Source: Sulfurifustis variabilis | GTDB lineage: Bacteria > Pseudomonadota > Gammaproteobacteria > Acidiferrobacterales > Sulfurifustaceae | Assembly (NCBI RefSeq): GCF_002355415.1 | Contig: NZ_AP014936.1 | Span: 2,976,001 to 3,040,000, forward strand | Length of the DNA stretch: 64,000 nucleotides | Direction: 5' to 3' | Shown here: piece after piece, positions 48,479 to 63,007 of the stretch | Position numbering within the stretch: the stretch's first letter is position 1 | How the letters are laid out: each line of letters starts with the position of its first letter | The notes under the pieces: generated by a model | Databases searched by the model: none | What the model was told of the DNA's origin: nothing | What the model saw: the letters and a program-made list of their open reading frames with translations, nothing else | Made by a program: the position numbers and the translations under genes

Positions 48479-49399
48479 CTAGATATTGCGCTGGAAGCCG
48501 GCCACGCGCTCCAGGGCCACCAGGATGCCCCACGGCGCGCTCATGATCTTGGTGAAGCCGTGCGCGCCGGCCATCTTGGTATCCGGGAAATGCAGCGCGA
48601 TGCGATAACGTGCCCGCAGCGCGATCACCTTGCCGCCGACCACCATCACTTCGTACGGCAGGTACGCCGTGTGCTTCAGCTCCTGGTGATCCACAACGCC
48701 GAGGATCTCCTTGTCCGTGTCCTTGTCGCCCTTGTCCGGGCCATCGACGGCCCCCTTCGGGATACCGACGCCGAACACGCTCACTTCCTTGCCCGGCAGG
48801 TCGACGCGATAGACCTTCACCGTCCCGCCGGCGCCGGCCGCCAGGTTCTTCTCCACCGTGTCCACCGCCGTCTTGTAGTCCGGATGCTCCTTCAGCAGGT
48901 CCACGTCGTGGAAGTACGGCATCATGAAGGCGTAGCGGTACACGCCGGGCTTCAGGCGCTCCTCATCCAGGCCCACCGAGCCGAAGGACTCCCGGGCCCC
49001 GAGCGCCGCCTTGAGCTTGGCGGACACACCCTCGAGCTTGCCCAGACCGTATGCGGTGCCGATATACGCCGGATTCGCGTACGCCACCTGGATCTTTCCG
49101 TTGACCTCCGTCACCGACACGCGCTGCGCGACACCGAAGCCGCCGTTCTCGACCTTCGCGGCAGCGGCTTTCAGTTCGGGGTTGGTGGCGCAGATGACCA
49201 TCGCGCCGGCGAACGGCTCGTAGGTTCCGACCAGGTCGAATCCCTGCGCCTTGAGCGCGTTCTTCACGCTCTCGGCCACCTGTTTGACGCTCCCCGGCGG
49301 CGTGTTGCCCATGATGTAAGGCTTGAGCACCTCGGCCTGCACGGCCGCGCTCCCGAACAAGGACAGCAGTAAGGCCAATACACTTACTATCTTCTTCAT
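48479..49399 (-). CDS. DUF302-domain periplasmic protein
   Basis: 306 residues with a signal peptide (SVLALLLSLFGSAAVQA). The DUF302 pattern lies in the mature N-terminal part (TPPGSVKQVAESVKNALKAQGFDLVGTYEPFAG-like, then MVICATNPELKAAAAK). The remainder is repeat-free alpha/beta with VTEVNGKIQVAYANPAYIGTAYG. DUF302 proteins are of unknown role and often appear in sulfur or heme-related operons. GCGAGGAGAG before ATG 49399 supports the start. Downstream of a FadL-type porin gene on the same strand with a terminator between. Confidence 0.72.
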   Translation of the reverse strand: MKKIVSVLALLLSLFGSAAVQAEVLKPYIMGNTPPGSVKQVAESVKNALKAQGFDLVGTYEPFAGAMVICATNPELKAAAAKVENGGFGVAQRVSVTEVNGKIQVAYANPAYIGTAYGLGKLEGVSAKLKAALGARESFGSVGLDEERLKPGVYRYAFMMPYFHDVDLLKEHPDYKTAVDTVEKNLAAGAGGTVKVYRVDLPGKEVSVFGVGIPKGAVDGPDKGDKDTDKEILGVVDHQELKHTAYLPYEVMVVGGKVIALRARYRIALHFPDTKMAGAHGFTKIMSAPWGILVALERVAGFQRNI

Positions 49400-49455
49400 T
49401 TCTCTCCTCGCTGGCGGAATATCATCCGTCTCTAGTTGTGCAATTACCGGACCAG

Positions 49456-49484
49456 AAAAAAAGGGGGCCGTGAAACACGGCCCC
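49456..49484 (-). terminator. rho-independent terminator of the porin gene
   Basis: GGGGCCGTG / CACGGCCCC 9-bp stem with AAA loop on the plus strand. Read on the minus strand it is followed by C and seven Ts. It lies 30 bp after the FadL-type porin stop, a textbook intrinsic terminator. Confidence 0.88.
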
Positions 49485-49514
49485 TCCGGTGCTGCTTTAT
49501 CGCTCACTACAGTT

Positions 49515-50572
49515 CTAGAACTTCCAGGCGTAACTCGCGGCGAGCTCCCACTGATCCATGCGGAGGGTAATGGTCTGCTGACCCGGTACCTCGAGCGGAT
49601 TGGGCCCGCTCACCTCTTCTTCCGGTGCGTACATGGCGGCGAACGACCACTCGCTGTTCTTGTTCAGGTGATTGGTGAAGCCGAAAGTAAAGTGCTGCTC
49701 CACGACACCGGGCGCCAGTATGTTGAAGAGCACCTCGCTTTCCGGGATAGGCTGATCGCCCATGCTGTAGCCTACACGCCAGGTCCACGCCTGGCTCGTC
49801 GACCATTGGTAGCCGAGCTTGTAGATCGTCATGTCCTCCCAACCGAAGCCGGCCCCGTTGTCGGCTCCGAGTGGTGCCATCCCTATATTTGGCAGCAGCG
49901 GGTTGGCGATCGACGGAACCTTGCTGTACCAGATCTTTTGGATGTCGAATACAAGCGTCGAAGACGGCGTGACATTCCAGGCGAGACCTACGGTCGCGGT
50001 GGCCGGGATATCGAACCCACCTTCCTCGGCGAACAGCCCTTTGTAGCTGTCGAATTCACTCATCGCCATCTCGGTCTGATAGGACGCGCCGAGCGTCACA
50101 CCCGGAGCAACTTCGCCCATGATCCCGAGTTTCAGGCCGAAGCCGGTCGAGCTGTCGTAGCCGTTATCGGTGAGGTTATTGGGATCACCCGAGAAGCCGA
50201 ACGCTCCGAAGGCCGCGAGCCCCGTTGCCTCGAAGCGATGAAGAAAAGCTCGCTGTCGCTGTCGACGGTCTCGGGAAAGAGTCCAAAGGCCGCCGGCGGC
50301 GGTGTGCCGGAGGGAGCTCCCTCGACGGTGTAGGAGCGTTTCGGGCTGAACAGCGAGAGCCCCGCATCGATGCGATTGCCGACCCGCACCATCCCTGCCG
50401 GATTGGTCGCGGCTGCCAGCGAGTCCTGTGGCAGCGCTACGCCCGCTCCTACCAGACCCTTCTCCTTGATGCTGTAGCCATGTGAGAAATAGCCGTTCGT
50501 GGCGAACGCACTGGGCGCGGCAACGGCGGCGGCAATGGCGAGCGCCAGGCCGTATTTCTTTTTGTGCTGCAT
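49515..50572 (-). pseudogene. FadL/OmpP1-family outer membrane protein with internal deletion
   Basis: Two minus-strand frames belong to one gene. The first (start 50572, ribosome site GGAGGAGAG, signal peptide ending PSAFA, then ATNGYFSHGYSIKEKGLVGAGVALPQDSLAAATNPAGM) is the FadL/OmpP1 N-terminus. It reads to DSDSELFFI, then changes frame near 50236 and resumes at FEATGLAAFGAFGFSGDPNN and continues to the final aromatic ASYAWKF at 49515. Relatives have some tens of residues between those points, so a deletion with a frame change, not just one base, is likely. Total span 1058 nt, not a multiple of three. The protein would import hydrophobic molecules; as it stands it is non-functional. Confidence 0.8.
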
Positions 50573-50833
50573 CTGCTCTCCTCCAAAAAATGTGGAAAGG
50601 TTATTGGCTCGCAACCTGACTTTCAGAAAGGAGAATAGCCACTCCTTTCTTCGTCTGTTTTTTGTTCGCGCGTTGTTGCGCGTTCCCTACTCTGTTGCGG
50701 ATAGGTGGCAGGCAAAGTATTCCTGACCGAGACGGCTGTCAATATTTCACTTTATGCCGATATATCGATATTCCATCCCCCTGAAACCATTGGCGTTTCG
50801 ACAGGCGTCCTCGTGAGAGCCGAAAGGGCCGCC

Positions 50834-51967
50834 TCAGCCCTCGAAAGTCCCGATGTCCTCTCCCCGCATTTGCCTGCACACGGTGTCGACGTCCGCGGCA
50901 GCAAGCGCGAAAGGAAACGAGCGCATGTCGCTCGGCGTCGAGTCGCCGTACGGGCGGTTGCACGCGGACACCTCCTCGTCGTCCCGACCGGGACAGCCGG
51001 ACGTCTGAAAAGGTTTTCCCGAACGGATCAGGGTCTCGAGCTCCGCGTCCGGAACTCCGAAGTCGATGACGCGACCGGTATCGTCGAAACGCATGCGGTC
51101 CGCGTGCCCGTCCGCGTAGTCGATGATGAAGCGACCGAGCTGTACGCGCCGCCACTGGTCGCGCGGGACCGCCTCCCAGTCCTCCATGAGAGAGCCGCGC
51201 TCCGGATAGAACGCGAACATATGATTGTGTCCGCCCATGTCCTTGATGCGCTGCGCGACCTCGAGGATCTCGCGCTCGGTCTCCCCCATGCCGCATATCA
51301 GATGCGCCCCGAACTTCTCCGGTCCGAAAATCTCCGCCGCCCACTCGAGCGCGCGCCAGTAGGTGTCCCACTTGTGGGGGCTGTCCACGCCTTTGCCGCG
51401 CGTGCGATCGAAGATCGCCGGCGTCACGGCGTCGAGTGCGACCGTGAAGATTTCGGCGCCCATGTCGCGCAGGCGAACGAGGTCGTCGTAACCCAGCGTC
51501 GTCGGATTGGAAAGGATGGAGACCGGAATATGAGGCACCTCACGCACCCACTTTTCGAGGAGCACGAAGGTGTCCGCGTCGGAGCTCGGGTGGGTGATCA
51601 TGGAGATGCACATCCTCTGGAACTGCGCCCTGTCGTCTCCGTTCTTCACGCGCTCGAGGATCTCCTCGTAGCGCGCGGTCGGCCAGTCGACCCGTATGAA
51701 GTTGCGATCCGCGTAGTCACGCGACTCCTCGCGGTGGCGGGCCAGGCCGCAGTACGCGCAATTCGCGCGGCAGCCCTCCGGGTAGGTCACGAGCAGATTC
51801 AGGCAATGCGTGCAGGCCGTGCGGTGCATCCGGCCCTCGACCAGACCGAGCGTGATGGCGGCGGCGGTCGACAGCTGGACGTACTCCGGCGAGCGCATCT
51901 CGGGCGTCCGCCGGCTGTGGTCGGGACGATAGAACCGGATCGGGACGGCGTCGGTCTGCGCGCTCAT
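50834..51967 (-). CDS. radical SAM lipoyl-synthase-type enzyme (COG2516-like, LipS)
   Basis: 377 residues. N-terminal CTHCLNLLVTYPEG and the radical SAM cluster CRANCAYCGLARHREE at residues 66-73, then biotin-synthase-like blocks (VALDAVTPAIFDRTRGKG, GAHLICGMGETEREILEVAQ). Two further cysteines at the C-terminus (SGCPGRDDEEVSACNRP) could hold an auxiliary cluster. It matches one of the two radical SAM proteins that together replace LipA, inserting sulfur atoms into octanoyl groups on lipoate-binding proteins. Numbering as LipS1 or LipS2 cannot be settled from sequence alone. GAGGAGG before ATG 51967. Last gene of the lip operon. Confidence 0.8.
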   Translation of the reverse strand: MSAQTDAVPIRFYRPDHSRRTPEMRSPEYVQLSTAAAITLGLVEGRMHRTACTHCLNLLVTYPEGCRANCAYCGLARHREESRDYADRNFIRVDWPTARYEEILERVKNGDDRAQFQRMCISMITHPSSDADTFVLLEKWVREVPHIPVSILSNPTTLGYDDLVRLRDMGAEIFTVALDAVTPAIFDRTRGKGVDSPHKWDTYWRALEWAAEIFGPEKFGAHLICGMGETEREILEVAQRIKDMGGHNHMFAFYPERGSLMEDWEAVPRDQWRRVQLGRFIIDYADGHADRMRFDDTGRVIDFGVPDAELETLIRSGKPFQTSGCPGRDDEEVSACNRPYGDSTPSDMRSFPFALAAADVDTVCRQMRGEDIGTFEG

Positions 51968-51980
51968 GCGGCCTCCTCGT

Positions 51981-53036
51981 TCACTCGAAGTACTCCTTGA
52001 AAGCGATCCAGCCACGCCGCTGCACGGCGTCGTCGTTCGCGGCGCGCTTGCGCCAGAACTGCGCGAGCCATGCGCGACGGGAGAGCGCACGCTCCAGGCT
52101 CGGCCCGTACTGCTCGCGAAGCTCGCTCTCGTAGTCGGCCAGGGCGGACGCGCGGCCGCCGAGATAAGCGGCGGCGGCATCCCCGGCCATCTCTCCCGAT
52201 TGCACCGCCGCCGCGATGCCCGCTCCGGAGATGGGATGCGTGAGGCCGGCGGCATCGCCCGCGAACAGAACCGGGCCTGCGACGACGCGCTCGCGCAGCC
52301 CGCTCACGGGAATGGCGCCCCCCGTGCGGAAGAAGCACTCGGCGCCAACGCGTCCGCATGCGACAAGGTGCGCGTGAAGGCGGTCCAGAGGCGTCCGGAG
52401 CTCGGCGGTCAGCCGGCGGTCCGCGCCGAGCCCGAGATTCGCACGGTCGCCGCGCGGGAAGAGCCAGCCGTACCCCCCCGGATACAGATCCGAGAGCCAG
52501 ATGTCGGTCTCGGTGCACGCCTGCGTGAGAGGCACCGTGTACTGACGCGTCTGCACGGTCTCGAGTGCAGGCAAACCAAGCAGTCGTGCCACCTGCGAGT
52601 GCGGGCCGTCGGCGGCCACGAGCACGCGCCAGTCGACGGAGTTCGTTCGCTTTCCCACCTGTAACCGGGCGGTGGTCCCGTCGAGCCACGCGAGCCGCGT
52701 CCGGGTGCTGACTCGTGCCCCGGCCGCTTCCGCTCGCCGTGCCAGGGACCGGTCGAACTCCGCGCGATCGACCATCAGCCCCTGGAACGGCGAGCGTTCG
52801 AGGTCGCCGGAAGGAAGGACGCTGTTCATGCCTTGAATGTGCTGTACGAGGACGCCGGGCTCGGCGGTGTAGGTCGAGAGCGGCCGGGGCACGAACTCCG
52901 CGCACTGCACCGGCTCGCCGATGCGCTGCTTCCGATCGATGGCGAGCACCGAGAGCCCCGCTCGTGCCGCCGCCCAGGCAGCCGCCGATCCGGCGGGACC
53001 GAGGCCGACGACGAGCACGTCGACGTTCGTCGTCAC
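51981..53036 (-). CDS. lipT: FAD-dependent reductase of the geranylgeranyl-reductase fold (LipT-like)
   Basis: 351 residues. FAD-binding motif VVGLGPAGSAAAWAAARAGL at the N-terminus, then C-E-F-V-P (CAEFVPRPLST), VLVAADGPHSQVARLLG, and VLFAGDAAGLTHPISGAGI, the GD flavin motif. Similar flavoproteins sit in lipoate-assembly clusters of sulfur oxidisers and are called LipT; their exact role (probably redox support of lipoyl assembly) is not settled. GTG start at 53036 overlaps the sLpl stop by GTGA. Must not be read as a 709-residue fusion: the frame open to 54110 upstream is coincidental. Confidence 0.8.
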   Translation of the reverse strand: MTTNVDVLVVGLGPAGSAAAWAAARAGLSVLAIDRKQRIGEPVQCAEFVPRPLSTYTAEPGVLVQHIQGMNSVLPSGDLERSPFQGLMVDRAEFDRSLARRAEAAGARVSTRTRLAWLDGTTARLQVGKRTNSVDWRVLVAADGPHSQVARLLGLPALETVQTRQYTVPLTQACTETDIWLSDLYPGGYGWLFPRGDRANLGLGADRRLTAELRTPLDRLHAHLVACGRVGAECFFRTGGAIPVSGLRERVVAGPVLFAGDAAGLTHPISGAGIAAAVQSGEMAGDAAAAYLGGRASALADYESELREQYGPSLERALSRRAWLAQFWRKRAANDDAVQRRGWIAFKEYFE

Positions 53037-54130
53037 GGGACTGCCTCTCGGTCGCCGTGCTGGTGGAGTGCCTGCACGGCGTTCGCGATCGCGCGCACGA
53101 AGTCCTCGCGCCTGAGCAGCAGCATCTCGGCCGGGTAGGCGCGAAAAAACGATTCCACCGTACGCCGGTAACCGTCCAGGGGCGAGTCGCGCAACGCCGC
53201 TTCGAGATCGGCGACGAGGCGCCGCGGGTTCACGAAAAAGTCGCCGGTGAACCATGCCTGCTTGATGCGGTTGCGGGCAGGATCGACGGCAAGCGCGACC
53301 CGCACCAGCCCGCCCTCCGCCCTGTGCAACCCCTCGACGACGGGCGCTTCGTCGACCGGCCGGTCGGTCGAGTAGACCCAGGCGGGCGTGTCGATCTCGC
53401 CGATCGCGAGCTCGAAGCGGCGTTGCTCGTCCGGTGCGAGGCCGCGGTCTTCGAAGTCGACACCGAATCCCTCGGCGAATGCGCGCGTGAGGGCGTGGCG
53501 GATCTGCTCGAGCCGCGGGGCGTCGCCGAGGAGCGCTTTGAGGGTCGTCACGCGTTCGCGCGCTGAAGCGATGGCCTTGGGGAGAAGCTTCTCGGCGGGG
53601 ATGCGAAGGACCTGCAGCATGCGCTCGATGTCGAAGTCGATGAGCAGCGTGCCCTGATACATGATCGAGTCGCCGTCGAAGGCGCCCCCGGTTCCCGATA
53701 TCTTGCGACCATCGACCTCGATGTCGTTGCGCGGTCGGTATGCGGCGGAGACCCCGAGCGCCGAGATGCCGCGCGCGGCCATCTCGCAGATACGCCGCGC
53801 GATCGCGCCCATGTCCGCGGTACCGAGCGCGCTCTTGTCGAGGTAGAGCTCCCAGCCGAGCTGTGCCGGCTCGAAGTAGATCGCGCCACCGCCCGTGATG
53901 CGCCGCTGAATGGCAATGCCATGGGCGCGACAGCGGTCCTCGCGCAGTTCCTGCGCCACGCTCTGGTGGAAACCGACGAGGGCCGCGGGTTCGAAGCGCA
54001 GGAAACGCAGCGTGTGCGGGGAGGAGCCGGCCTGGTGCGACTCGAGGAGCGCGCGATTCAGCGCGATGTTCTCGGCTGCGCGCCGGAGACCGGTATCGAT
54101 GATGCGCCAACCCGCGGGCCGTTCCTTCAT
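53033..54130 (-). CDS. lipoate-protein ligase (sLpl(AB)-type)
   Basis: 365 residues joining an LplA catalytic domain and an LplB-like accessory domain in one chain. The acyl-adenylate loop is RRITGGGAIYFEP (residues 76-88) and the second motif NDIEVDGRKISGTG contains the catalytic lysine. The C-terminal ~110 residues (EIDTPAWVYS, AEGGLVRVALAV, GDFFVNPRRLVADLEAAL) are the LplB/accessory part. It attaches octanoate or lipoate to the lipoate-binding protein. ATG overlaps the stop of the previous gene by ATGA and its stop overlaps lipT, so the four are translationally coupled. Confidence 0.85.
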   Translation of the reverse strand: MKERPAGWRIIDTGLRRAAENIALNRALLESHQAGSSPHTLRFLRFEPAALVGFHQSVAQELREDRCRAHGIAIQRRITGGGAIYFEPAQLGWELYLDKSALGTADMGAIARRICEMAARGISALGVSAAYRPRNDIEVDGRKISGTGGAFDGDSIMYQGTLLIDFDIERMLQVLRIPAEKLLPKAIASARERVTTLKALLGDAPRLEQIRHALTRAFAEGFGVDFEDRGLAPDEQRRFELAIGEIDTPAWVYSTDRPVDEAPVVEGLHRAEGGLVRVALAVDPARNRIKQAWFTGDFFVNPRRLVADLEAALRDSPLDGYRRTVESFFRAYPAEMLLLRREDFVRAIANAVQALHQHGDREAVP

Positions 54131-55263
54131 GGCGCGGTGCAGCCGCCGCCCGCGGTGACCGGTATACCCTTTAATCCGCTCCGGCTGCGCTCGCGTTCCT
54201 GTCGCACGATCTCGTCCAGATCGAGCGCAACGGACTCCGCACCGTCGAGCGCCATGACCTCCTCACCCACGGCGATCGAGCAGCACGCCGGCGTGACGCG
54301 CACGCTCCGGCCCATGCGTGCCGCGAGCTCGACGATGCCTTCCGACGGATGCGCCATTCCGGTGACGCCCGCCATGACCGCATAGGCGTCGATCAGCACC
54401 TTCACCTGCCCCGGGGGGCGCGCGCAGCCGAGCAGCAGCGGAAGATCCGGGAGCCGGGTGCGGGCGTCGAGCAGAAACCGGCCCACCTCGTGCGGATCGG
54501 GCGTCGCGAACGGACGGCGCGCGGGCGCGTAGAACGGCATCACCACGACCAGCACCAGCGCATCCGGGCGGTGGCGGGCGACGATGTCGAGCGCGCCCCA
54601 CTCTCCGAGCAACCGGCCGTAATGCAGGCCGATGACGATGTGCGGCACCACCTTCATGCGCGTCGCGACCAGCGCTTCGAGTGCGCGCTCGAAGTCGGCA
54701 ACCGGACGCTTGAGATGATAGACGTGCGTGACCGTCTCCTGCGCGCCGATCACGTCCATCATCGCGACGTCGATGCCCGCGTCCTCCATGCGCCGTGCCT
54801 TGTCGGCATCGACGAGCGCCGTGTGAGCGGCGATGCGGAAATCGGGATAGCTGTCCTTGATGCGCCGCACGGTCGGGTAGAACGGATCGTATTCCACCTC
54901 GTCGCGGTGATTCGAACCGCCGGTGAGCAACATGCCCTTCGCGCCCTGGCCGATCATCGACTCGACGACCTGCCACAACGCGGCCGGCGTGCGCGCCGCG
55001 ATCATCGGCTCGAGCACCTTTGCCTTGCAGTGGTCGCACTTGAGCTTGCACTCACCGCCCGTGATGGACACGGCGGGCCACGACTGCCTGCCGCAGCCGC
55101 GGATCTCGGAGCTCGCGTAGGCCTTGAAGGTGGGCGTATAGAAGTGGATCGAGGAGCTCTCGTCCCTCGCAGCGGCCGCCGCGAAGTCCGCCACGAGGTC
55201 CGCGCGCACCGGCAGTTCTTCGAGCGCCTCCACCTCCGCGAGGATGTCCAGCCAGCTGCGCAT
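54127..55263 (-). CDS. radical SAM lipoyl-synthase-type enzyme (COG1856-like, LipS)
   Basis: 378 residues. Radical SAM motif CKLKCDHCK at residues 72-79 in PAVSITGGECKLKCDHCKAKVL, preceded by YASSEIRGCGRQ. Later MLLTGGSNHRDEVEYD, HTALVDADKARRMEDAGIDVAMMDVIGAQE and VTPACCSIAVGEEV. This is the second of the two radical SAM proteins of the LipS pathway, distantly related to the 50834 gene; together they would insert the two sulfurs of lipoate. The start 55263 is chosen by the homologous N-terminus; the longer frame upstream overlaps lbpA in another frame and is rejected. 29 bp after lbpA. Confidence 0.82.
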   Translation of the reverse strand: MRSWLDILAEVEALEELPVRADLVADFAAAAARDESSSIHFYTPTFKAYASSEIRGCGRQSWPAVSITGGECKLKCDHCKAKVLEPMIAARTPAALWQVVESMIGQGAKGMLLTGGSNHRDEVEYDPFYPTVRRIKDSYPDFRIAAHTALVDADKARRMEDAGIDVAMMDVIGAQETVTHVYHLKRPVADFERALEALVATRMKVVPHIVIGLHYGRLLGEWGALDIVARHRPDALVLVVVMPFYAPARRPFATPDPHEVGRFLLDARTRLPDLPLLLGCARPPGQVKVLIDAYAVMAGVTGMAHPSEGIVELAARMGRSVRVTPACCSIAVGEEVMALDGAESVALDLDEIVRQERERSRSGLKGIPVTAGGGCTAP

Positions 55264-55292
55264 GCGCCCGCCGCGGATGGTTGCCGGAAGGG

Positions 55293-55730
55293 TCAGCAGC
55301 CCTTGAAGCCGTCGGCGTTCATCTTCGCCTCGAACGCCTGGAGCGCGTCGTTTCCGGTCTTCAGCGCCGTGGCATCGGCGTCCCAGTTCGTGGGCTTCAG
55401 CCGGACGATCCAGCCCTCCCCGTACGGATCCCTGTTGATCGTTCCGGGTTTGGCCGTGACCGCGTCGTTGATCGCGACGACTTCGCCCGCAACCGGGGCT
55501 TTCACCGGGCCAACCCACTTGCCCGACTCGACGGTCGCGCACGACTTGTCTTTCTCGATCGCCTTGCCCGCCTTCTTGGGCGTATAGGAAACGATCTCGC
55601 CGGCGAGGGAGCAGGCGTACGACGTGAGGCCGACGCTGACGTTCCCGTCCGCCTCCCGTCGCGCCCAGACGTTGTTATCGATGTTGTAGTGCAGTTCTTC
55701 GGGAATGTTGCATCCGCGCACGACGCCCAT
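55293..55730 (-). CDS. lbpA: lipoate-binding protein LbpA (GcvH-like)
   Basis: 145 residues of the GcvH hybrid-motif fold: WARREADGNVSVGLTSYACSLAGEIVSYTPKKAGK, then the lipoyl lysine K71 in VESGKWVGPVKAPVAGEV, then VAINDAVTAKPGTINRDPYGEGWIVRLKP. It is not glycine-cleavage GcvH: the sequence around the lysine is divergent and no gcvTP is near. Cysteines at 7, 40, 64 and the last residue (FKGC) are unusual. LbpA carries lipoate in sHdr-type cytoplasmic sulfur oxidation. GGGAGGATCGCC before ATG 55730. It is followed by four genes for its own lipoylation. Confidence 0.9.
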   Translation of the reverse strand: MGVVRGCNIPEELHYNIDNNVWARREADGNVSVGLTSYACSLAGEIVSYTPKKAGKAIEKDKSCATVESGKWVGPVKAPVAGEVVAINDAVTAKPGTINRDPYGEGWIVRLKPTNWDADATALKTGNDALQAFEAKMNADGFKGC

Positions 55731-56081
55731 GGCGATCCTCCCGATCCGAAAAGGGTGACAATACGGCCCGGAACGGACGTTTTTACTGCAAACGCCTGCT
55801 CGAAACAATGACGGCCGGCAGACTCCGAGCCCTCGTAAAGACAACACCGGGTGGATGGCCAAACACGTCGACGCCGCAACGCGGCGCTGCACATCGCTGA
55901 TAGCGTGACCGCGGCGCTTCCTGCCCGGTGCCGGTCGAATCGCGATGCGCGCGTATGCGTCGGGGATGCGAAACAACGGGATGGGTATCGTCGCGTCCCC
56001 GGCCGTCCGGAGACAAATGCCACGGCCGGGCAGTCCATTGCCCGCCGCCGTGCGTGAGCTACGGGAACTGCGTAAAGAGAA
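55731..56081. other. 351-bp gap between lbpA and dsrE, no gene seen
   Basis: Frames are open but without ribosome sites or recognisable products (Arg-rich). This is the place where hdr-like genes would be expected in sHdr operons, and no fragment of HdrA, HdrB or HdrC is visible. It probably holds the lbpA promoter. Confidence 0.5.
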
Positions 56082-56561
56082 TTACATGAACAGGCAGATG
56101 TCGGATTCGCCGGCGAACGCCATGAACGTCGATGCGCCCCCGAATTCGATGCCATCGATCAGGTCCTGCGGACTGAAATCGAACAGGTCCACGGTCATTT
56201 GACAGGCGATCATCTTGACATCGGCCTCCTGGCACAGGCCGCGCAGCTCTTCGATGGTGGCGATCCCTTTCGACTTCATCTTCGACTTCATCATCGCCGT
56301 CATCATGGCCTCCATGCCCGGAATCGCGGTGAAGAGCACCGGGAACCACTTGTCCATGCCCATCGGCATCGGCATCCCCGGGTTTCCCAACGGGCTGACC
56401 TTGAGGCCCATCTTCTTCTTGAGGAGTTGCAGGCCGTAAAACGTGAAGAAGATCTGTACCTCGTATCCGAGCGCGGCCGCCGTCGAACCGAGAATGAACG
56501 GCGGATAGGCCCAGTCCAGGGTACCCTTGGTGGCGATGATCGCCATTTTCTTGCCTGCCAT
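56082..56561 (-). CDS. DsrE-family sulfur carrier (DsrE2/DsrE3-like)
   Basis: 159 residues. DsrE/F/H fold: MAIIATKGTLDWAYPPFILGSTAAALGYEV, then FYGLQLLKKKMGL, and the conserved cysteine segment LRGLCQEADVKMIACQMTVDLF with Cys at about 109 and 120. The methionine-rich loop (PMPMGMDKW, MEAMMTAMMK) is typical of the DsrE2/DsrE3 group. These proteins bind persulfide sulfur and pass it to TusA. Transcribed with tusA, 62 bp apart. The single-membrane-helix of DsrE2 is not obvious, so a soluble DsrE3 is the better guess. Confidence 0.83.
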   Translation of the reverse strand: MAGKKMAIIATKGTLDWAYPPFILGSTAAALGYEVQIFFTFYGLQLLKKKMGLKVSPLGNPGMPMPMGMDKWFPVLFTAIPGMEAMMTAMMKSKMKSKGIATIEELRGLCQEADVKMIACQMTVDLFDFSPQDLIDGIEFGGASTFMAFAGESDICLFM

Positions 56562-56623
56562 GACACTCTCCTCGAAAGCGAAGACGGCCCGTCGTGCGCC
56601 GTACGCGCGTGTTAGTTATAGGT

Positions 56624-56848
56624 TCAGGCCTTCTTGATCAGGAAGCTGTATTCCCCACTCGCCTCGTTCGACTCGAGCAGCTGGTTGCCGGTCTGCTTGG
56701 CGAATGCCTGGAAGTCCTTCACGGACCCCGGGTCCGTTGCAAGAATGCGCAGCGTCTGTCCGCTACTCATCCCGTTTAGCGCCTTTTTTGCGCGAAGGAT
56801 CGGCAGGGGGCAGTTCAGACCCCTTGCGTCAAGTTCTTGATCAGCCAT
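56624..56848 (-). CDS. tusA: sulfur carrier TusA
   Basis: 74 residues. The persulfide-carrying cysteine lies in DARGLNCPLPILRAKKAL (CPxP motif), then the TusA sheet (TLRILATDPGSVKDFQAFAKQ). Relays sulfane sulfur from rhodanese to DsrE and on to sulfur-oxidation complexes. The start 56848 has CAGGAGAG upstream; the earlier frame adds non-conserved residues. First gene of the cluster. Divergent from bepA, an arrangement common in gammaproteobacteria. Confidence 0.93.
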   Translation of the reverse strand: MADQELDARGLNCPLPILRAKKALNGMSSGQTLRILATDPGSVKDFQAFAKQTGNQLLESNEASGEYSFLIKKA

Positions 56849-57256
56849 TGTGCTCTCCTGTGTTGAACGAATCGTGTCGTGCGCGGCTCGGCCGCGGGGC
56901 ATGGAGACTATCCCATTTCACCCGGCTCCGGGAGCGTCCTGGCAGGCGGCCGGGCAGCGCCGAGAAAACGGCGCTACATCAATCAGTATATTATTAGATT
57001 CGCAACTGCGCCTAGCAGGGGTTTCAGCCCGATTTTGGGCCGGACTCGGGGACTCGAGACTCCGTTTCCAGATAAGCCATTGATCCGAATTAGTTAAAGT
57101 ACTCGAGCCTGGGGTGCCAAATGGCTCGTCGGGCTTGCGGGAACCGAACGGGATCATCGGCCTCTGAAGGGTGTTGCCTTGGAGGATCGGTCGCTGCGAT
57201 CCGGATTCGATCGACCGCCTTTTAGTTCGGGAGAAGCAACCGCATATTATGTAGCC
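56849..57256. promoter_or_regulatory. 408-bp divergent promoter region, tusA and bepA
   Basis: No gene is supported. An AT-rich patch at 56978-57003 (ATCAGTATATTATTAGATTC) stands out from GC-rich flanks and is the best promoter candidate for the tusA-lip cluster. A longer in-frame bepA start at 57179 has no signal-peptide logic. Confidence 0.35.
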
Positions 57257-58699
57257 ATGCCCCGTTTGCCCGCCTACCTGCTTTCCGCTCTGCTTGCCGC
57301 TCACGGCGTCGTCGCACAAGCCAGCCCGGTCGCGCTTCCGGATCTTGGCGATACGTCTCTGACCGTCATATCGCCTGCGCAGGAGCGCAAGCTCGGAGAA
57401 GAGCTGATGCGCAAGGCGCGCCGTCAGCTCGTCTTCCTGGACGACGCGGAAGTCAATGACTACGTCCAGCAGTTGGGCCAACGCCTGGTATCCCACAGCG
57501 ACAATGCGTCGCAGGACTTCCGCTTTTTCGTGGTCTCCGATCCGTCGATCAACGCGTTCGCGATGCCCGGTGGCTTCATCGGTGTCCACACGGGGCTCAT
57601 CCTCGCGGCTCAGAGCGAGGCGGAGCTTGCCTCGGTCCTGGCGCACGAAATCGCGCATATCACGCAACGTCATATTCCGCGCATGCTGACCGAAGCGCAG
57701 CGGACGACGCTGCCGGCGATGGCCGCGCTGCTCGGTGCGATCCTGCTCGCCGGGTCGGGCCAGCAGGGCGGCGAGGCGGCAATCGCGCTCACCACCGCCA
57801 CGCTCGCGCAGAAAGGGATCAACTTCACGCGATCCTCCGAAGAAGAGGCCGACCGCATCGGTGTCGCGATCCTTGCGGAAGCGGGTCTCGACCCGCGCGC
57901 GATGCCTTCTTTCTTCGAGCGCATGCAGAACATGAATCGGCACAACGAGACCAACCTGCCCGAGTTCCTGCGCACGCACCCGGTCACCACCTCCCGCATC
58001 GCCGATTCCCGCGATCGCGCCGAGCGGTACACGTATCGCCAGGTTCCGGACAGCCAGGGATTCCTTCTGACACGCGCGAAGATCAGGGCGTTGGCGCCCG
58101 GTGATCCTGCCGAGATCGCCCGGGGTTTCGCGCAGAACCTGGCCGAAGGAAAGCATGCGAGCGCCGACGCGGAACGCTACGGTTACGCACTGGCGCTCCT
58201 GCGCGCACGACAGTACGGCACCGCCCGCGCCGAGGCACGCAAACTGACCGAGCGGCACCCCAACGAAGTCGCCTTCCGCATGCTCGCCGCCGAAGTGGAG
58301 CTCTCCTCGGGTCGCACGGTACCCGGTCTCCGCGCGTACGCGGATGCCTATCGCGCGCACCCGTCCTATCCCCCGCTCGCGCGCAACTACGGACGGGCAC
58401 TCCTGCGCTCCGGGCGCGCTCGCGACGCGGAAGCGATCCTGCGGGCGGCGATCAAGCAACGGCCGGACGACCCGGTGCTCTACGAGCTTCTCGCCCAGGC
58501 GGCAGGCGAGGCCGGCAGGCGCCCGGAGGCGCACCAGGCGATGGCCGAGCACTATTATCTGAACGGCAACCCGGGGGCCGCCATCGAGCAGCTCCAGCTC
58601 GCGTCCCGCTACGTAGGGGACAATTTTTATCTCCAGGCCAGCTTGGAGGCGCGGATTCAGGCCATCCGAGAAGAGCTGGCGCTATACCGCACGAAATAA
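57257..58699 (+). CDS. bepA: M48-family metalloprotease BepA (YfgC) with TPR domain
   Basis: 480 residues. Signal peptide (LLSALLAAHGVVAQA), M48 protease with zinc motif LAHEIAHITQRH at about residue 133 and the downstream EEEADRIGVAIL glutamate, then C-terminal TPR helices (RYGYALALLRARQYGTARAEARKL, VLYELLAQAAGEAGRRPEAHQAM). BepA monitors BAM complex and LptD assembly in the periplasm. Start 57257 begins the signal peptide. Followed by 201 bp to soxX, so transcription is probably separate. Confidence 0.93.
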   Translation: MPRLPAYLLSALLAAHGVVAQASPVALPDLGDTSLTVISPAQERKLGEELMRKARRQLVFLDDAEVNDYVQQLGQRLVSHSDNASQDFRFFVVSDPSINAFAMPGGFIGVHTGLILAAQSEAELASVLAHEIAHITQRHIPRMLTEAQRTTLPAMAALLGAILLAGSGQQGGEAAIALTTATLAQKGINFTRSSEEEADRIGVAILAEAGLDPRAMPSFFERMQNMNRHNETNLPEFLRTHPVTTSRIADSRDRAERYTYRQVPDSQGFLLTRAKIRALAPGDPAEIARGFAQNLAEGKHASADAERYGYALALLRARQYGTARAEARKLTERHPNEVAFRMLAAEVELSSGRTVPGLRAYADAYRAHPSYPPLARNYGRALLRSGRARDAEAILRAAIKQRPDDPVLYELLAQAAGEAGRRPEAHQAMAEHYYLNGNPGAAIEQLQLASRYVGDNFYLQASLEARIQAIREELALYRTK

Positions 58700-58900: not shown

Positions 58901-59311
58901 ATGGGGAAAACCGTCAAAGCTCTCGTCGGCACGACCGCCGCTTTTCTCGTCGGATCGCTGCTGTGGACCACCCCCGCCCAGGCCGCGGGTCAGGTACCGG
59001 ACGATAAAACCTGCAAGGACGAAGAGGCCGTGAAAAAGCTGGACACGGCAACCCAGGGCGGTTGCGTCGTCATCAATCGCCGCAAAGGAAACTGCATGGC
59101 CTGTCACCAGATCGCCGGCATCTCCTCCGGCAACATCGCCCCGCCGCTCGTTGCCATGAAGCAGCGCTTCCCGGACAAGGCGAAGCTGCGGGCGCAGATC
59201 AGCAACCCGCACCAGTTCAACCCAGACAGCGTGATGCCACCGTTCGGGGAACACAAGATCTTGTCGCCGGACGAGATCGACAAGGTCGTGGAATTCGTGC
59301 TCACGCTCTAG
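58901..59311 (+). CDS. soxX: SoxX, monoheme cytochrome c subunit of SoxAX
   Basis: 136 residues with signal peptide (AAFLVGSLLWTTPAQA). One c-heme site CMACHQIAG and a Met ligand region in DSVMPPFGEHKIL. SoxAX oxidatively couples thiosulfate to the SoxY cysteine in the periplasm. A strong ribosome site CAGGAGGAGAA precedes ATG 58901. First gene of soxXYZA. Confidence 0.95.
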   Translation: MGKTVKALVGTTAAFLVGSLLWTTPAQAAGQVPDDKTCKDEEAVKKLDTATQGGCVVINRRKGNCMACHQIAGISSGNIAPPLVAMKQRFPDKAKLRAQISNPHQFNPDSVMPPFGEHKILSPDEIDKVVEFVLTL

Positions 59312-59362
59312 CCGAGACGATTCCGTATTACAGAAGTATCTGACTCCCGAGGAGGAAAGGTC

Positions 59363-59836
59363 GTGACAAACATGCATCGCAGAACCTTCATGAAGGGCAC
59401 GATGGCCGCCGCCGTCGTCGGCGTCGCCGCAGGCGCGGGGTTGCTCAAACCCGGCCGCGTGCTGGCGGCCGAGTGGCCCAAGGATGCCTTCGCGGCGAAG
59501 AGCGTCGACGAGACGCTGAAGAGCCTGTACGGCAACACGTCGGCGGCCGCGTCGAACGAGATCAAGATCAAGGCACCGATCCAGGCCGAGAACGGCGCGG
59601 TGGTACCGATCACCGTCTCCGCGAACATGCCGAACGTGCAGGCGATCAGCCTGTATGTGGAGAAGAACCAGTTCCCGCTGGTCGCCAACCTGAACTGCAA
59701 CGGTGCCGAGGGCTACTTCTCCGCCCGCATGAAGATGGGCCAGACCTCCGATGTGCAGTGCGTCGTGAAGGCGGGCGACAAGCTCTACACGGCCAAGCAG
59801 AACATCAAGGTTACCGTCGGCGGCTGCGGCGGTTAA
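59363..59836 (+). CDS. soxY: SoxY, sulfur-carrier subunit
   Basis: 157 residues with a Tat signal (HRRTFMKG near the start, then AAAVVGVAAGAGL). The swinging-arm cysteine is in the final VTVGGCGG, on which sulfur intermediates are covalently bound. Exported folded with SoxZ by Tat. The GTG at 59363 has GAGGAGGAAAGG just before it; an ATG three codons later is an alternative start. Confidence 0.95.
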   Translation: MTNMHRRTFMKGTMAAAVVGVAAGAGLLKPGRVLAAEWPKDAFAAKSVDETLKSLYGNTSAAASNEIKIKAPIQAENGAVVPITVSANMPNVQAISLYVEKNQFPLVANLNCNGAEGYFSARMKMGQTSDVQCVVKAGDKLYTAKQNIKVTVGGCGG

Positions 59837-59873
59837 GCGCACGACACCGGCAACCGACTAGAGGATTGAGACA

Positions 59874-60188
59874 ATGGCAAGACAGACTCGCATGCGGACC
59901 AAGAGCCAGGACGGGGCGACCGAAATCCTGGTGCTCGTGAACCATCCGATGGAAACCGGTCAGCGCACGGATCCGAAGACCAAGGAAAAGATTCCCGCTC
60001 ATTTCATCCAGAAGATGACGTTTTCGCTGAACGGCAAGGAAGTGGCCGTGGCCGACCTCGGCGTGGCGGTGTCGAAGGATCCGCTGGTAGGCGTCCGGGT
60101 CAAGAACGCCAAAGCCGGCGACAAAGTGAAGGTGACGTGGAGCGACAACAAGGGAGAGACGGGCGAGGCCGAAACCACGGTCCGCTGA
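59874..60188 (+). CDS. soxZ: SoxZ, sulfur-carrier partner of SoxY
   Basis: 104 residues, no signal peptide (carried out as a SoxYZ heterodimer on SoxY's Tat signal). Ig-like fold: TKSQDGATEILVLVNHPMETGQRTD, HFIQKMTFSLNGKEVAVADLG and KAGDKVKVTWSDNKGE. Follows soxY by 37 bp, with AGAGGATTGAG before ATG. Confidence 0.95.
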   Translation: MARQTRMRTKSQDGATEILVLVNHPMETGQRTDPKTKEKIPAHFIQKMTFSLNGKEVAVADLGVAVSKDPLVGVRVKNAKAGDKVKVTWSDNKGETGEAETTVR

Positions 60189-60199
60189 AGCCCCCGAAC

Positions 60200-60222
60200 G
60201 GCGCCGCGGCTCGCGCGGCGCC
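60200..60222. other. hairpin between soxZ and soxA
   Basis: GGCGCCGCG and CGCGGCGCC, 9-bp stem with 5-nt loop, no T-tract. Likely mRNA processing or stability element between two genes of different expected protein ratio. Confidence 0.45.
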
Positions 60223-60251
60223 GCCGCTCAACCGCAGGAGGAGACGAAGTA

Positions 60252-61118
60252 ATGAAAAAAATCATGATCCTGATTGCCGCGCTCGGCGTCGCCGGCTCGG
60301 CCTCGCTGGTCCAGGCCGATCCGGCCGCCGACCTCAAGCAGTTCCGCGAGTTCTTCAAGAAGAAGTTCCCCACCGTCAAGTTCGACGACTACGCCATCGG
60401 CCTCTACGCGCTGCCCGGCATGGACGACTATCGCGACCAGTGGCGGGCGATCGAGGAGTTCCCGCCGTACGAGATCGAGCTCGAAGCCGGCCAGAAGGAA
60501 TGGAACACCCCCTTCAAGAACGGCAAGACCTACGCGAGCTGCTTCAAGAACGGCGGCAAGAACATCGCCCAGCACTACCCCTATTGGGACGAAGGCAGCA
60601 AACAGGTGCGCACGGCCGAGATGGACATCGTCGACTGCCTCAAGAAGAACGGCGAGGTGCGCCCCTTCATGGAGGCCGATCTCAGCAAGGACAAGAAGGC
60701 CCGTAACCAGCTGGCCAGCCTGACCGCGGCGTTCTACGAGCTGTCGAAGGGCCAGCGCGTCGCGATCGACCTCTCCAAACCCGGCGCGGTCCAGGCGTAC
60801 GAGGAGGGCAAGAAGTTCTGGTGGCAGCGCCGTGGCCAGCTCAACTTCTCCTGCTCGAACTGCCACATGGACCTGGCCGGCAAGAACTTCGGCGGGAACC
60901 AGCCGCTGTCCGCGGCGCTGGGGCACCCGGTCGGCTGGCCGGCGTACCGGCTCGTGTGGGGCCAGCTGGAGACGATCCACCATCGCTACCGGACGTGCAA
61001 CTCGCAGTCCCGCGCCAAGCCGTTCAAGCACGGCGACAAGATTTATGACCATCTGCAGCTGTACGAGACGTACCTGAGCAGCGGCCTGCCGCTCATGGCG
61101 CCGTCGCTGCGCAACTAG
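60252..61118 (+). CDS. soxA: SoxA, single-heme cytochrome subunit of SoxAX
   Basis: 288 residues with a signal peptide (MILIAALGVAGSASLVQA). Only one c-heme site is present, FSCSNCHMDLAGKNFGG, in the C-terminal half. At the first-heme position of diheme SoxA this protein has CFKNGGKN, so the first heme has been lost, and a cysteine pair (CFKNGG and DCLKK) probably forms a disulfide. The active-site cysteine ligand lies in HHRYRTCNSQ. Works with SoxX to load thiosulfate onto SoxYZ. Followed by an intrinsic terminator. Confidence 0.94.
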   Translation: MKKIMILIAALGVAGSASLVQADPAADLKQFREFFKKKFPTVKFDDYAIGLYALPGMDDYRDQWRAIEEFPPYEIELEAGQKEWNTPFKNGKTYASCFKNGGKNIAQHYPYWDEGSKQVRTAEMDIVDCLKKNGEVRPFMEADLSKDKKARNQLASLTAAFYELSKGQRVAIDLSKPGAVQAYEEGKKFWWQRRGQLNFSCSNCHMDLAGKNFGGNQPLSAALGHPVGWPAYRLVWGQLETIHHRYRTCNSQSRAKPFKHGDKIYDHLQLYETYLSSGLPLMAPSLRN

Positions 61119-61143
61119 TCGCCGCCCGAAGTCGAAAACCGAA

Positions 61144-61169
61144 CCCGGCCCCCGTGGCCGGGTTTTTTT
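61144..61169 (+). terminator. rho-independent terminator after soxA
   Basis: CCCGGCC / GGCCGGG 7-bp stem followed by seven Ts, 25 bp after the soxA stop. Confidence 0.92.
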
Positions 61170-61261
61170 CGGACCGGCCGAATCCGGAATAAGCGCCGTC
61201 GCCGATCCGTCTTACGCGTAATCCGTCCGCGGCCCCGCCGCAATTTCACTCGGAGTCACCC

Positions 61262-63007
61262 ATGAGTCTTTCCCGTCGCGAATTCCTCCAGATGCTCGCC
61301 CTCGCCAGCGCCGCTGGCCTCGGCGTGGGCTGTGAGCGATCCACGAAGACGGCCGGCGCGGCCGGTAAGGCGGCCGGCAACTTCTACGACGTGCCGCCGT
61401 TCGGCAACGTGACCTTGCTGCACATGACCGACTGCCATGCGCAGCTGATGCCCATCTACTTCCGGGAGCCGAACATCAACATCGGCGTGGGGGAGGCGCG
61501 CGGCAAGCCTCCGCATCTCGTTGGCGAGGCCCTGCTCAAGCACTTCAACATCGCGGCGGGAACGCCGGAGGCCCACGCCTTCACGTACCTCGACTTCGAG
61601 GAAGCAGCCCGGCGGTACGGAAAGGTGGGCGGGTTCGCCCATATGGCGACGCTGGTGAAGATGATGCGCGACAGCCGGCCGAACCGCACGCTGTTCCTGG
61701 ACGCCGGCGATACCTGGCAAGGGTCCGCGACCGCGCTCTGGACGCGGGGACAGGACATGGTGGATGCGCAGAAGCTTCTCGGAATCGAGGTAATGACCGG
61801 ACACTGGGAGTTCACGTACGGGGCCGAGCGCGTCAAAGAGATCGTGGAGATCGACCTCGCGGGCAAGATCGACTTCATCGCGCAGAACGTGTTCGACACG
61901 AGCTTCGGCGAGGACCGTGTGTTCACGCCGTACGTGATCAAGGAAGTGAACAAGATTCCGGTCGCGGTGATCGGTCAGGCGTTTCCCTACACGCCGATCG
62001 CGAACAACCGCTTCGCGTTCCCCGACTGGTCCTTCGGCATCCGTGACGAGGAGGTGCAGCGGCTGGTCGACGAGGCACGCGGCAAGGGCGCACAGGTGGT
62101 CGTCGTGCTCTCGCACAACGGGACGGACGTCGATCTGAAGATGGCCTCCCGCGTCACCGGCATCGACGTGATCCTGGGCGGGCATACCCACGACGCCATG
62201 CCTGCCCCTTCGATCGTGCCGAACAAGTCGGGCAGGACGCTCGTCATCAACTCCGGCTCCAACACCAAGTTCCTCTCGGTGCTCGATCTCGATGTGCGGG
62301 GCGGGAAGGTGGCGGACTTCCGTTACAAGCTTCTCCCCGTTTTCGCCAACATGCTGCCTGCTGACAAGGAGATGGCCGCCTACATCGAGAAGGTGCGCGC
62401 GCCCTACAAGGACAAGCTTGAGGAGAAGCTTGCCGTGACCGAGAGCCTTCTCTACCGGCGCGGTAACTTCAACGGGACGTTCGACCAGCTCATCGTGGAT
62501 GCGATGCTCGCCGTGCAGGACGCGGAGATCGCCTTCTCTCCGGGCTTCCGCTGGGGCACCACCCTCCTCCCTGGGGACCCGATTCTGTTCGAGCATCTCA
62601 TGGACCAGACGGCGATCACCTACGGCGCCGCTACGCTCAACCAGACCTCCGGCGAGCAGATCAAGGTGATTCTCGAGGACATCGCCGACAACCTCTATCA
62701 CCCCGATCCGTATTACCAGCAGGGCGGGGACATGGTGCGGGTGGGCGGCCTCACCTACGCGCTCGATCTGACGAAGTCCCACGGCCAGCGAATCTCCGAT
62801 CTTCGGGTGCACGGCAAGCCGCTCGACGCCAAGAAGACGTACAAGGTGGCCGGGTGGGCAAGCGTGCATCCCCAGCCCGAAACGCTCAAGCCCATCTGGG
62901 ACATCGTGGCCGAGTACCTGCGCGACAAGAAAACGGTCAAGGTCACGGAACCCTACGTGCCGCAGCTCAAGGGCGCGGACGGGAACCCGGGCTACACCAA
63001 GATCTGA
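61262..63007 (+). CDS. soxB: SoxB, thiosulfohydrolase
   Basis: 581 residues. Tat signal SRREFLQMLALASAAGLGVGC, then the 5'-nucleotidase-type dinuclear Mn site: TLLHMTDCHAQ, LDAGDTWQGSA, HWEFTYG, LSHNGTDVD and LGGHTHDAMP. C-terminal domain with substrate pocket (YYQQGGDMVRVGGL). Releases sulfate from SoxY-S-thiosulfonate. Transcribed after the soxA terminator with its own short 92-bp leader; has its own terminator after it. Confidence 0.96.
   Translation: MSLSRREFLQMLALASAAGLGVGCERSTKTAGAAGKAAGNFYDVPPFGNVTLLHMTDCHAQLMPIYFREPNINIGVGEARGKPPHLVGEALLKHFNIAAGTPEAHAFTYLDFEEAARRYGKVGGFAHMATLVKMMRDSRPNRTLFLDAGDTWQGSATALWTRGQDMVDAQKLLGIEVMTGHWEFTYGAERVKEIVEIDLAGKIDFIAQNVFDTSFGEDRVFTPYVIKEVNKIPVAVIGQAFPYTPIANNRFAFPDWSFGIRDEEVQRLVDEARGKGAQVVVVLSHNGTDVDLKMASRVTGIDVILGGHTHDAMPAPSIVPNKSGRTLVINSGSNTKFLSVLDLDVRGGKVADFRYKLLPVFANMLPADKEMAAYIEKVRAPYKDKLEEKLAVTESLLYRRGNFNGTFDQLIVDAMLAVQDAEIAFSPGFRWGTTLLPGDPILFEHLMDQTAITYGAATLNQTSGEQIKVILEDIADNLYHPDPYYQQGGDMVRVGGLTYALDLTKSHGQRISDLRVHGKPLDAKKTYKVAGWASVHPQPETLKPIWDIVAEYLRDKKTVKVTEPYVPQLKGADGNPGYTKI

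Follow-up and report, generated by a model that had tools for sequence, protein, structure and literature searches.

The sHdr pathway of sulfur oxidation is described as having the lipoate-binding protein LbpA as one of its key components, and the reason why some organisms contain two LbpAs was stated to be unexplained (PMC6067878). The closest described gene arrangement is the type I sHdr-LbpA operon, hdrC1B1AhypC2B2-lbpA1-dsrE-lbpA2-lipS1-slpl(AB)-lipT-lipS2, which is known in Thioalkalivibrio and Ectothiorhodospira. LbpA is modified by sLpl(AB), which attaches octanoate, and by LipS2 and LipS1, which insert two sulfurs (PMC10332631, PMC6067878); LipT is thought, from published work on the family, to supply electrons. 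Hyphomicrobium cannot carry out sHdr-dependent thiosulfate oxidation without LbpA2, and dihydrolipoate is able to accept sulfane sulfur from rhodanese (PMC10332631, PMC6067878). Here we describe a locus in Sulfurifustis variabilis skN76 that carries LbpA2 and its assembly genes and in which the hdr genes are absent. It lies in a stretch of 64,000 nucleotides (the window), positions 2976001 to 3040000 of a one-contig, 100% complete genome of 3,958,814 bp.

Judged from its gene content, the locus is a type I sHdr-LbpA operon lacking its enzyme, the block hdrC1B1AhypC2B2-lbpA1-dsrE3 being absent. In related hdr loci the order is M48-rhd-tusA-dsrE2-hdrC1-hdrB1-hdrA-hyp-hdrC2-hdrB2-lbpA1-dsrE3-lbpA2-lipS1-slpl-lipT-lipS2, with rhd or dsrE2 missing from some. 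The window shares with these the site (M48, often rhodanese, tusA and often dsrE2), the order and the orthologous lbpA2-lipS1-slpl(AB)-lipT-lipS2 genes, and differs from them in lacking the six hdr/hyp genes and lbpA1; neither an sHdrB-type gene nor a second LbpA was found in the genome. Of the components of the sHdr-LbpA system, then, a lipoyl-lysine LbpA and linked TusA and DsrE proteins are present and the hdr genes are not. The four maturation enzymes are adjacent and in the Thioalkalivibrio order, as in the published sLpl(AB)-LipS1/S2 pathway, whose substrate in bacterial sulfur oxidizers is, however, the LbpA of the sHdr system (PMC10332631), a system not found in this genome. A further relative is the rhodanese-TusA-DsrE2 relay, present as a rhd-tusA-dsrE2 unit in several genomes with reverse Dsr (rDsr) (L133, L138, L140, L141, L145 and L152); those loci have no lbpA within 1.5 kb on each side, whereas the window run has lbpA and no rhd.

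The only large gap in the run, 351 bp between dsrE2 and lbpA, had been singled out in the original prediction as the place where sHdr genes might be expected, and it is at this very site that relatives carry hdrC1-B1-A-hyp-C2-B2-lbpA1-dsrE3. A tblastn search of 348 bp of the gap with reference proteins gave no recognizable remnant of the hdr block (best E 0.011 over 9 residues). The site itself is shared: M48 adjoins rhd/tusA in 10 of 16 upstream stretches of sHdr genomes, lies about 7 kb away in two more, and was found in 16 of 24 hdr-less loci. The junction left at the site takes several forms, with tusA-dsrE2-lbpA2 in the window and the majority, tusA-lbpA2 in L158, L159 and L179, tusA-dsrE3-lbpA2 in L189 and L203, and tusA-dsrE2-dsrE3-lbpA2 in L161 and L193. 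In the same-genus pair G156 and G267, both with dsrA, the difference is the hdrC1-to-lbpA1 stretch.

The carrier kept in the window is LbpA2, as far as its sequence relationships tell: among LbpA1, LbpA2 and GcvH it is closest to LbpA2, and it has the conserved N- and C-terminal cysteines. It shares 74% identity with one sHdr-linked LbpA2 and 31% with the neighboring LbpA1. The lipoyl-lysine is K71 and the cysteines are C7, C40 and C145 (145-residue numbering); among the hdr-less proteins in the tree described below the lysine and first cysteine are conserved in 24 of 24 and the last cysteine in 23. Against the GcvH equivalog TIGR00527 the protein scores 86.6 bits, below the 115.85 required, and it reaches the GcvH subfamily model NF002270 (123.4, cut-off 117); in the genome's own GcvH, the part covered by the match does not have the LbpA motif. 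An AlphaFold model has the H-protein fold (pLDDT 96.7), with a TM-score of 0.83 by query length to the lipoylated Escherichia coli H protein 3ab9. A third PF01597 match in the genome (L011), considered as a possible second LbpA, reads as part of a biotin-dependent carboxylase-type protein and not as an H protein.

Whole-genome searches for the CCG domain (PF02754; found in sHdrB2) and for sHdrB2 did not find hdrC1B1AhypC2B2 or the type II hdrC1B1AhypB3, HdrA and HdrC having had no search of their own. The sHdrB2 query, taken from a true sHdr operon (L049), gave no match at E<=1e-15. There are 10 CCG matches in six proteins, none with sHdr-like surroundings: two Fe-S subunits of the glycolate-oxidase type (L014, L017), an Isp2-type protein encoded within a [NiFe] hydrogenase cluster (L015), a LutA-like protein (L016), a CCG protein near a rubrerythrin (L018) and DsrK (L019), which lies in a dsr cluster and scores 594 bits with the DsrK model. 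Names other than DsrK were given from context, and domain or family content was checked in five of the six, L015 being the exception. The genome also carries rDsr, with two copies of dsrA, and Sox; of the conventional lipA/lipB/gcvH set that the original prediction proposed looking for, it has LipA and a separate GcvH.

The arrangement recurs. In a class draw of 369 genomes slpl(AB) was found at 44% identity or more in 28 (one partial), sHdrB2 at 68% or more in 21 and dsrA in 117. Twenty of the 28 genomes with slpl(AB) have sHdrB2 and eight do not; in seven of these eight tusA/dsrE stands directly before lbpA, and the eighth (G337), at a contig edge, 75% complete and with sHdr in its genus, was excluded from the hdr-less set. 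A scan of named genomes took the best 80 loci among the matches and is thus a sample, comprising 40 hdr loci, 20 hdr-less loci and 20 that were undecided (contig edges or lbpA out of reach) and left uncounted. Two of the named hdr-less loci also occur in the draw (L189 is G267 and L236 is G285), and G186 was counted as hdr-less through L134. The hdr-less form is therefore present in at least 25 different genomes, window included, and its occurrence in 24 others means that the window arrangement is not a matter of chance. sHdrB2 was found in none of these genomes (0 of 7 in the draw, 0 of 20 named), the best match being 35% identical or absent, and the same search gave sHdrB2 at 83–89% in all 15 of the hdr-locus genomes that served as whole-genome controls and for two undecided loci (L175 and L208). 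In one sHdr genome (G106) the sole ligase match is a distant one, at 30% identity.

A tree of the five joined module proteins has 75 rows, 51 hdr and 24 hdr-less (G186 is absent). The hdr/hdr-less label needs eight changes on it, at least five of them forced by the starred branches, and a single clade of hdr-less rows was rejected (p-AU 1e-53). Some cases resemble late loss, namely E. magna (L179) among E. shaposhnikovii, L189 (BMS3Bbin13) beside L202, and L203 beside L226, and there are also whole hdr-less clades with long histories (six Betaproteobacteria rows and four Sulfuricella-type rows). When rooted on one distant outgroup (L073), the long-branched hdr-less lineages L071, L210 with L228, and L060 with L062 are basal; an early hdr-less state is thus possible, and the first change there could be either gain or loss of hdr.

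The module in hdr-less loci is under purifying selection. In eight close hdr-less pairs the ratio of nonsynonymous to synonymous substitution (dN/dS) was 0.05–0.23 across the module genes (lipS2 missing in one pair), and lbpA had the lowest value in seven of the eight. The wider pair of the window and L158 gave 0.10–0.29, and five hdr pairs gave 0.01–0.25, with dS saturated in two. E. magna compared with its near sHdr relative L186 gave 0.16–0.48 on a small dS, which may reflect early decay. All five module genes are present in 20 of the 24 hdr-less rows and four genes in three of the remaining four. Repeated absence of sHdr together with retention of the module under purifying selection indicates that LbpA2 functions without sHdr; it very likely has a role that does not need that complex, probably in sulfur oxidation. 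The suggestion of a different sulfur pathway, supplied by TusA and DsrE, as the one in which the module works is supported as far as an sHdr-free function goes.

The position of LbpA2 beside tusA-dsrE2 and sox, with soeABC-like genes in some loci and dsrA or dsrB in 16 of 25 hdr-less genomes, favors a role between TusA/DsrE2 and rDsr. We envisage that LbpA2 would be octanoylated by sLpl(AB) and then receive sulfurs from LipS2 and LipS1 with electrons from LipT; the dihydrolipoyl arm of holo-LbpA2, with the conserved cysteines, could take sulfane sulfur from the TusA/DsrE2 relay and hand sulfur or electrons to the reverse Dsr branch (DsrEFH/DsrC-DsrAB). It would be an accessory to that branch and not an obligatory part of it. 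That the locus is an hdr-less sHdr-LbpA operon whose lipoylated LbpA2 works in a TusA/DsrE2 sulfane relay, with a link to rDsr that we infer, is the reading we prefer, and we put it at a little short of an even chance. The broader proposition, that a second route of sulfur oxidation uses lipoate as a cofactor, with LbpA2 as sulfane-sulfur carrier or redox relay from TusA/DsrE2 to rDsr, is put forward tentatively; if true, it would explain the two LbpAs of many sHdr organisms, LbpA1 being bound to sHdr and LbpA2 general.

The link to rDsr is weak, and several observations weigh against it. dsrB had no match in nine of the 25 hdr-less genomes, including the isolate Ectothiorhodospira magna; three of the others (G178, G285 and G186) are 72–81% complete and also lack a dsrA match, and the remaining five are metagenome-assembled genomes (MAGs) of unstated completeness. 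Only four of 113 rDsr genomes without sHdr in the draw have the module and 109 do without it (five more of the 113 have distant ligases only, at 28–36% identity), and enrichment of the module in rDsr genomes over genomes with neither system was not significant (p 0.28). It may be that rDsr merely makes the loss of sHdr tolerable. The picture of LbpA2 as the form that is kept is also affected by the search: none of the 24 hdr-less loci shows an lbpA1, and since these were located through slpl(AB), which is adjacent to lbpA2, loci keeping lbpA1 alone would be missed.

The genomes with no dsrB match and the many rDsr genomes that lack the module would suit an LbpA2 that acts apart from sHdr as well as rDsr, for instance one that serves the TusA pool as a dithiol reducing persulfides or buffering sulfane sulfur, of use to sulfur oxidizers with any sulfite-forming enzyme. 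So would the constant upstream neighbor in the 20 named hdr-less loci, which is a TusA and/or a DsrE protein. The dsrB-negative genomes are, however, mostly incomplete or unchecked MAGs, and E. magna appears to be a young loss whose module may be decaying. dsrAB moreover occurs more often with hdr-less loci (16 of 25) than among sHdr genomes (11 of 34; p 0.02, with kinship not corrected for), the latter being 21 from the draw and 13 named hdr genomes new to it, with L175 and L208 excluded and a partial dsrB (G395) counted. We regard full independence as rather unlikely, though a serious alternative.

A relic, left over from the loss of sHdr and now decaying, would account for the reduced locus L236, which lacks lipS1, lipS2 and the C-terminal cysteine of LbpA, for the raised dN/dS of E. 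magna and for the broken FadL gene of the window, which aligns with its relatives in two separate frames, some 74 residues being absent between these. The low dN/dS inside hdr-less groups, the long-lived hdr-less clades and the completeness of the module in most rows make this improbable. More doubtful still is a second general lipoylation route serving pyruvate or 2-oxoglutarate dehydrogenase or GcvH, with LbpA2 as a bystander or lipoyl relay. LipS1 and LipS2 are indeed widespread in the absence of sHdr, which accompanies them in 42% of the bacteria that have LipS1/S2 (PMC10332631), but 24 of the 25 hdr-less genomes have a canonical LipA (23 above the curated cut-off), so a general role is unlikely; the window genome has its own GcvH, lbpA is the most constrained module gene in most pairs, the ligase of sulfur oxidizers is specific for LbpA and an Aquifex LbpA is without relay activity (PMC6067878). 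The other option of the original prediction, an sHdr complex encoded elsewhere in the genome, gained no supporting evidence and is scarcely credible given a complete one-contig sequence, negative sHdrB2 search and six CCG proteins in other contexts, in agreement with the listing of the strain as Sox-Dsr-Soe (PMC6397845).

Parts of this picture are already in print. That lip genes occur without sHdr is generally known (the 42% figure above, PMC10332631), and loss of the hdr cluster with joining of its conserved flanks, the same kind of event, was reported for two Sulfuricella strains in 2019 (PMC6397845); Sulfuricella sp. T08 (L216) is an hdr-less locus of the present set. The available text of that account does not name LbpA or lipoate assembly genes as a kept flank, nor recurrence in other families. 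In the passages of open PMC papers that were covered, we found no statement of LbpA without sHdr, and earlier notice elsewhere is possible. What was not met with in this literature is the retention of LbpA2 without sHdr across several lineages. With sHdr and LbpA1 missing in several lineages and LbpA2 and its costly maturation route under selection, LbpA2 very likely acts outside sHdr, and cultured strains without sHdr (Sulfurifustis variabilis skN76, Sulfuricella sp. T08 and Ectothiorhodospira magna) offer a means to study it. It also follows that the presence of lbpA or lip genes in a metagenome is not a safe sign of the sHdr pathway.

Table 1. Features of the hdr-less LbpA2 locus and its surroundings (window coordinates)
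Feature	Position	Strand	Basis or remark
soxX, soxY, soxZ, soxA, soxB, periplasmic thiosulfate oxidation	58901..63007	+	domains: cytochrome c, SoxY, SoxZ, SoxA/TsdA, 5'-nucleotidase-type
M48 peptidase with TPRs, divergent; marks the shared site	57179..58699	+	PF01435
tusA, sulfur carrier	56624..56848	-	PF01206 E 1.1e-25; ATG at 56848, AGGAGA upstream
dsrE2, sulfurtransferase-like	56082..56561	-	NF047629 317.5 bits (cut-off 210)
351-bp gap	55731..56081	.	site of hdrC1-B1-A-hyp-C2-B2-lbpA1-dsrE3 in relatives (synteny)
lbpA (LbpA2 type)	55293..55730	-	GCV_H PF01597; 145 aa
lipS1, radical SAM lipoyl synthase part	54127..55263	-	NF053742 E 1.3e-56; CxxxCxxC motif
slpl(AB), lipoate/octanoate:protein ligase	53033..54130	-	LplA-B_cat PF21948 and C-terminal LplB match
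lipT, FAD oxidoreductase	51981..53036	-	TIGR02032 above cut-off; GTG start; 4-bp overlap with slpl
lipS2, radical SAM lipoyl synthase part	50834..51967	-	NF053743 E 2.5e-56; CxxxCxYC motif
Broken FadL-type outer-membrane transporter gene (lipY-like)	49515..50614	-	downstream of lipS2
Protein of unknown family, kept downstream of the module	48479..49507	-	14/24 hdr-less and 7/20 hdr loci; no Pfam match

The seven genes from tusA to lipS2 (Table 1) run in one direction with no internal stops, and the complete lipoate assembly set around LbpA is there as predicted, each gene matching its family. Four genes had been thought to overlap by 4 bp; the overlaps are in fact two, tying together lipS1, slpl(AB) and lipT, and lipT is spaced from lipS2 by 13 bp on their likely starts. 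A 92-residue open reading frame reaching 56902 is an upstream extension of the tusA start. The window DsrE2 is 78–81% identical to the lbpA-adjacent DsrE2 of five other hdr-less genomes (G035, G045, G178, G186 and G285). LipS1 and LipS2 have NF053742 and NF053743 as top matches, yet under the model cut-offs (192 against 230 bits and 191 against 270 bits), and the conserved gene order holds around both despite these scores. sLpl(AB) matches the LplAB model at residues 7–252 (E 4e-37) and the LplB model at 268–352 (E 7e-12), both under their own cut-offs, and is 44–68% identical to the module ligases of the class draw; LipT is a flavoprotein of the geranylgeranyl-reductase family. Our own motif patterns for sLpl(AB) (18 of 24) and LipT (6 of 23) were too strict, and nothing was drawn from them. 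Six alignment columns of LbpA2 are conserved with sHdr and loose without it, too few to build on.

Around the module, the FadL-type family occurs at 13 of the 24 hdr-less loci and at 13 of the 20 hdr loci, and soxXYZAB has been described for the skN76 genome (PMC5024460). soeABC-like genes lie upstream of rhd-tusA-dsrE2-lbpA2 in L174, L185 and L191; those of L174 have molybdopterin, 4Fe-4S and DmsC/NrfD domains. Of the three genes, L193 has two, those with the 4Fe-4S and DmsC/NrfD domains, and L177 has one. E. magna B7-7 (L179) has the module without a match for sHdrB2 or dsrB, and the remaining Ectothiorhodospira loci of the tree have hdr genes. L236/L068 (CP070733.1) reads tusA-dsrE2-lbpA-slpl(AB)-lipT, with lipS1 and lipS2 absent and no C-terminal cysteine in LbpA; its genome has LipA and gave no match for sHdrB2, dsrA or dsrB. 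Three further loci, L164 and L169 (Sulfurimicrobium) and L234 (Sulfuricellaceae), have slpl(AB)-lipT-lipS2 beside gyrA-like and FadL-like genes, with lbpA and lipS1 not seen in the stretch read and sHdrB2 not found in the genomes; dsrB is present. The window genome also encodes a second, distant lipoate-ligase-like protein of 29% identity (L013, G000:C1:360406-361302), whose gene adjoins one reading as a U32-type peptidase.

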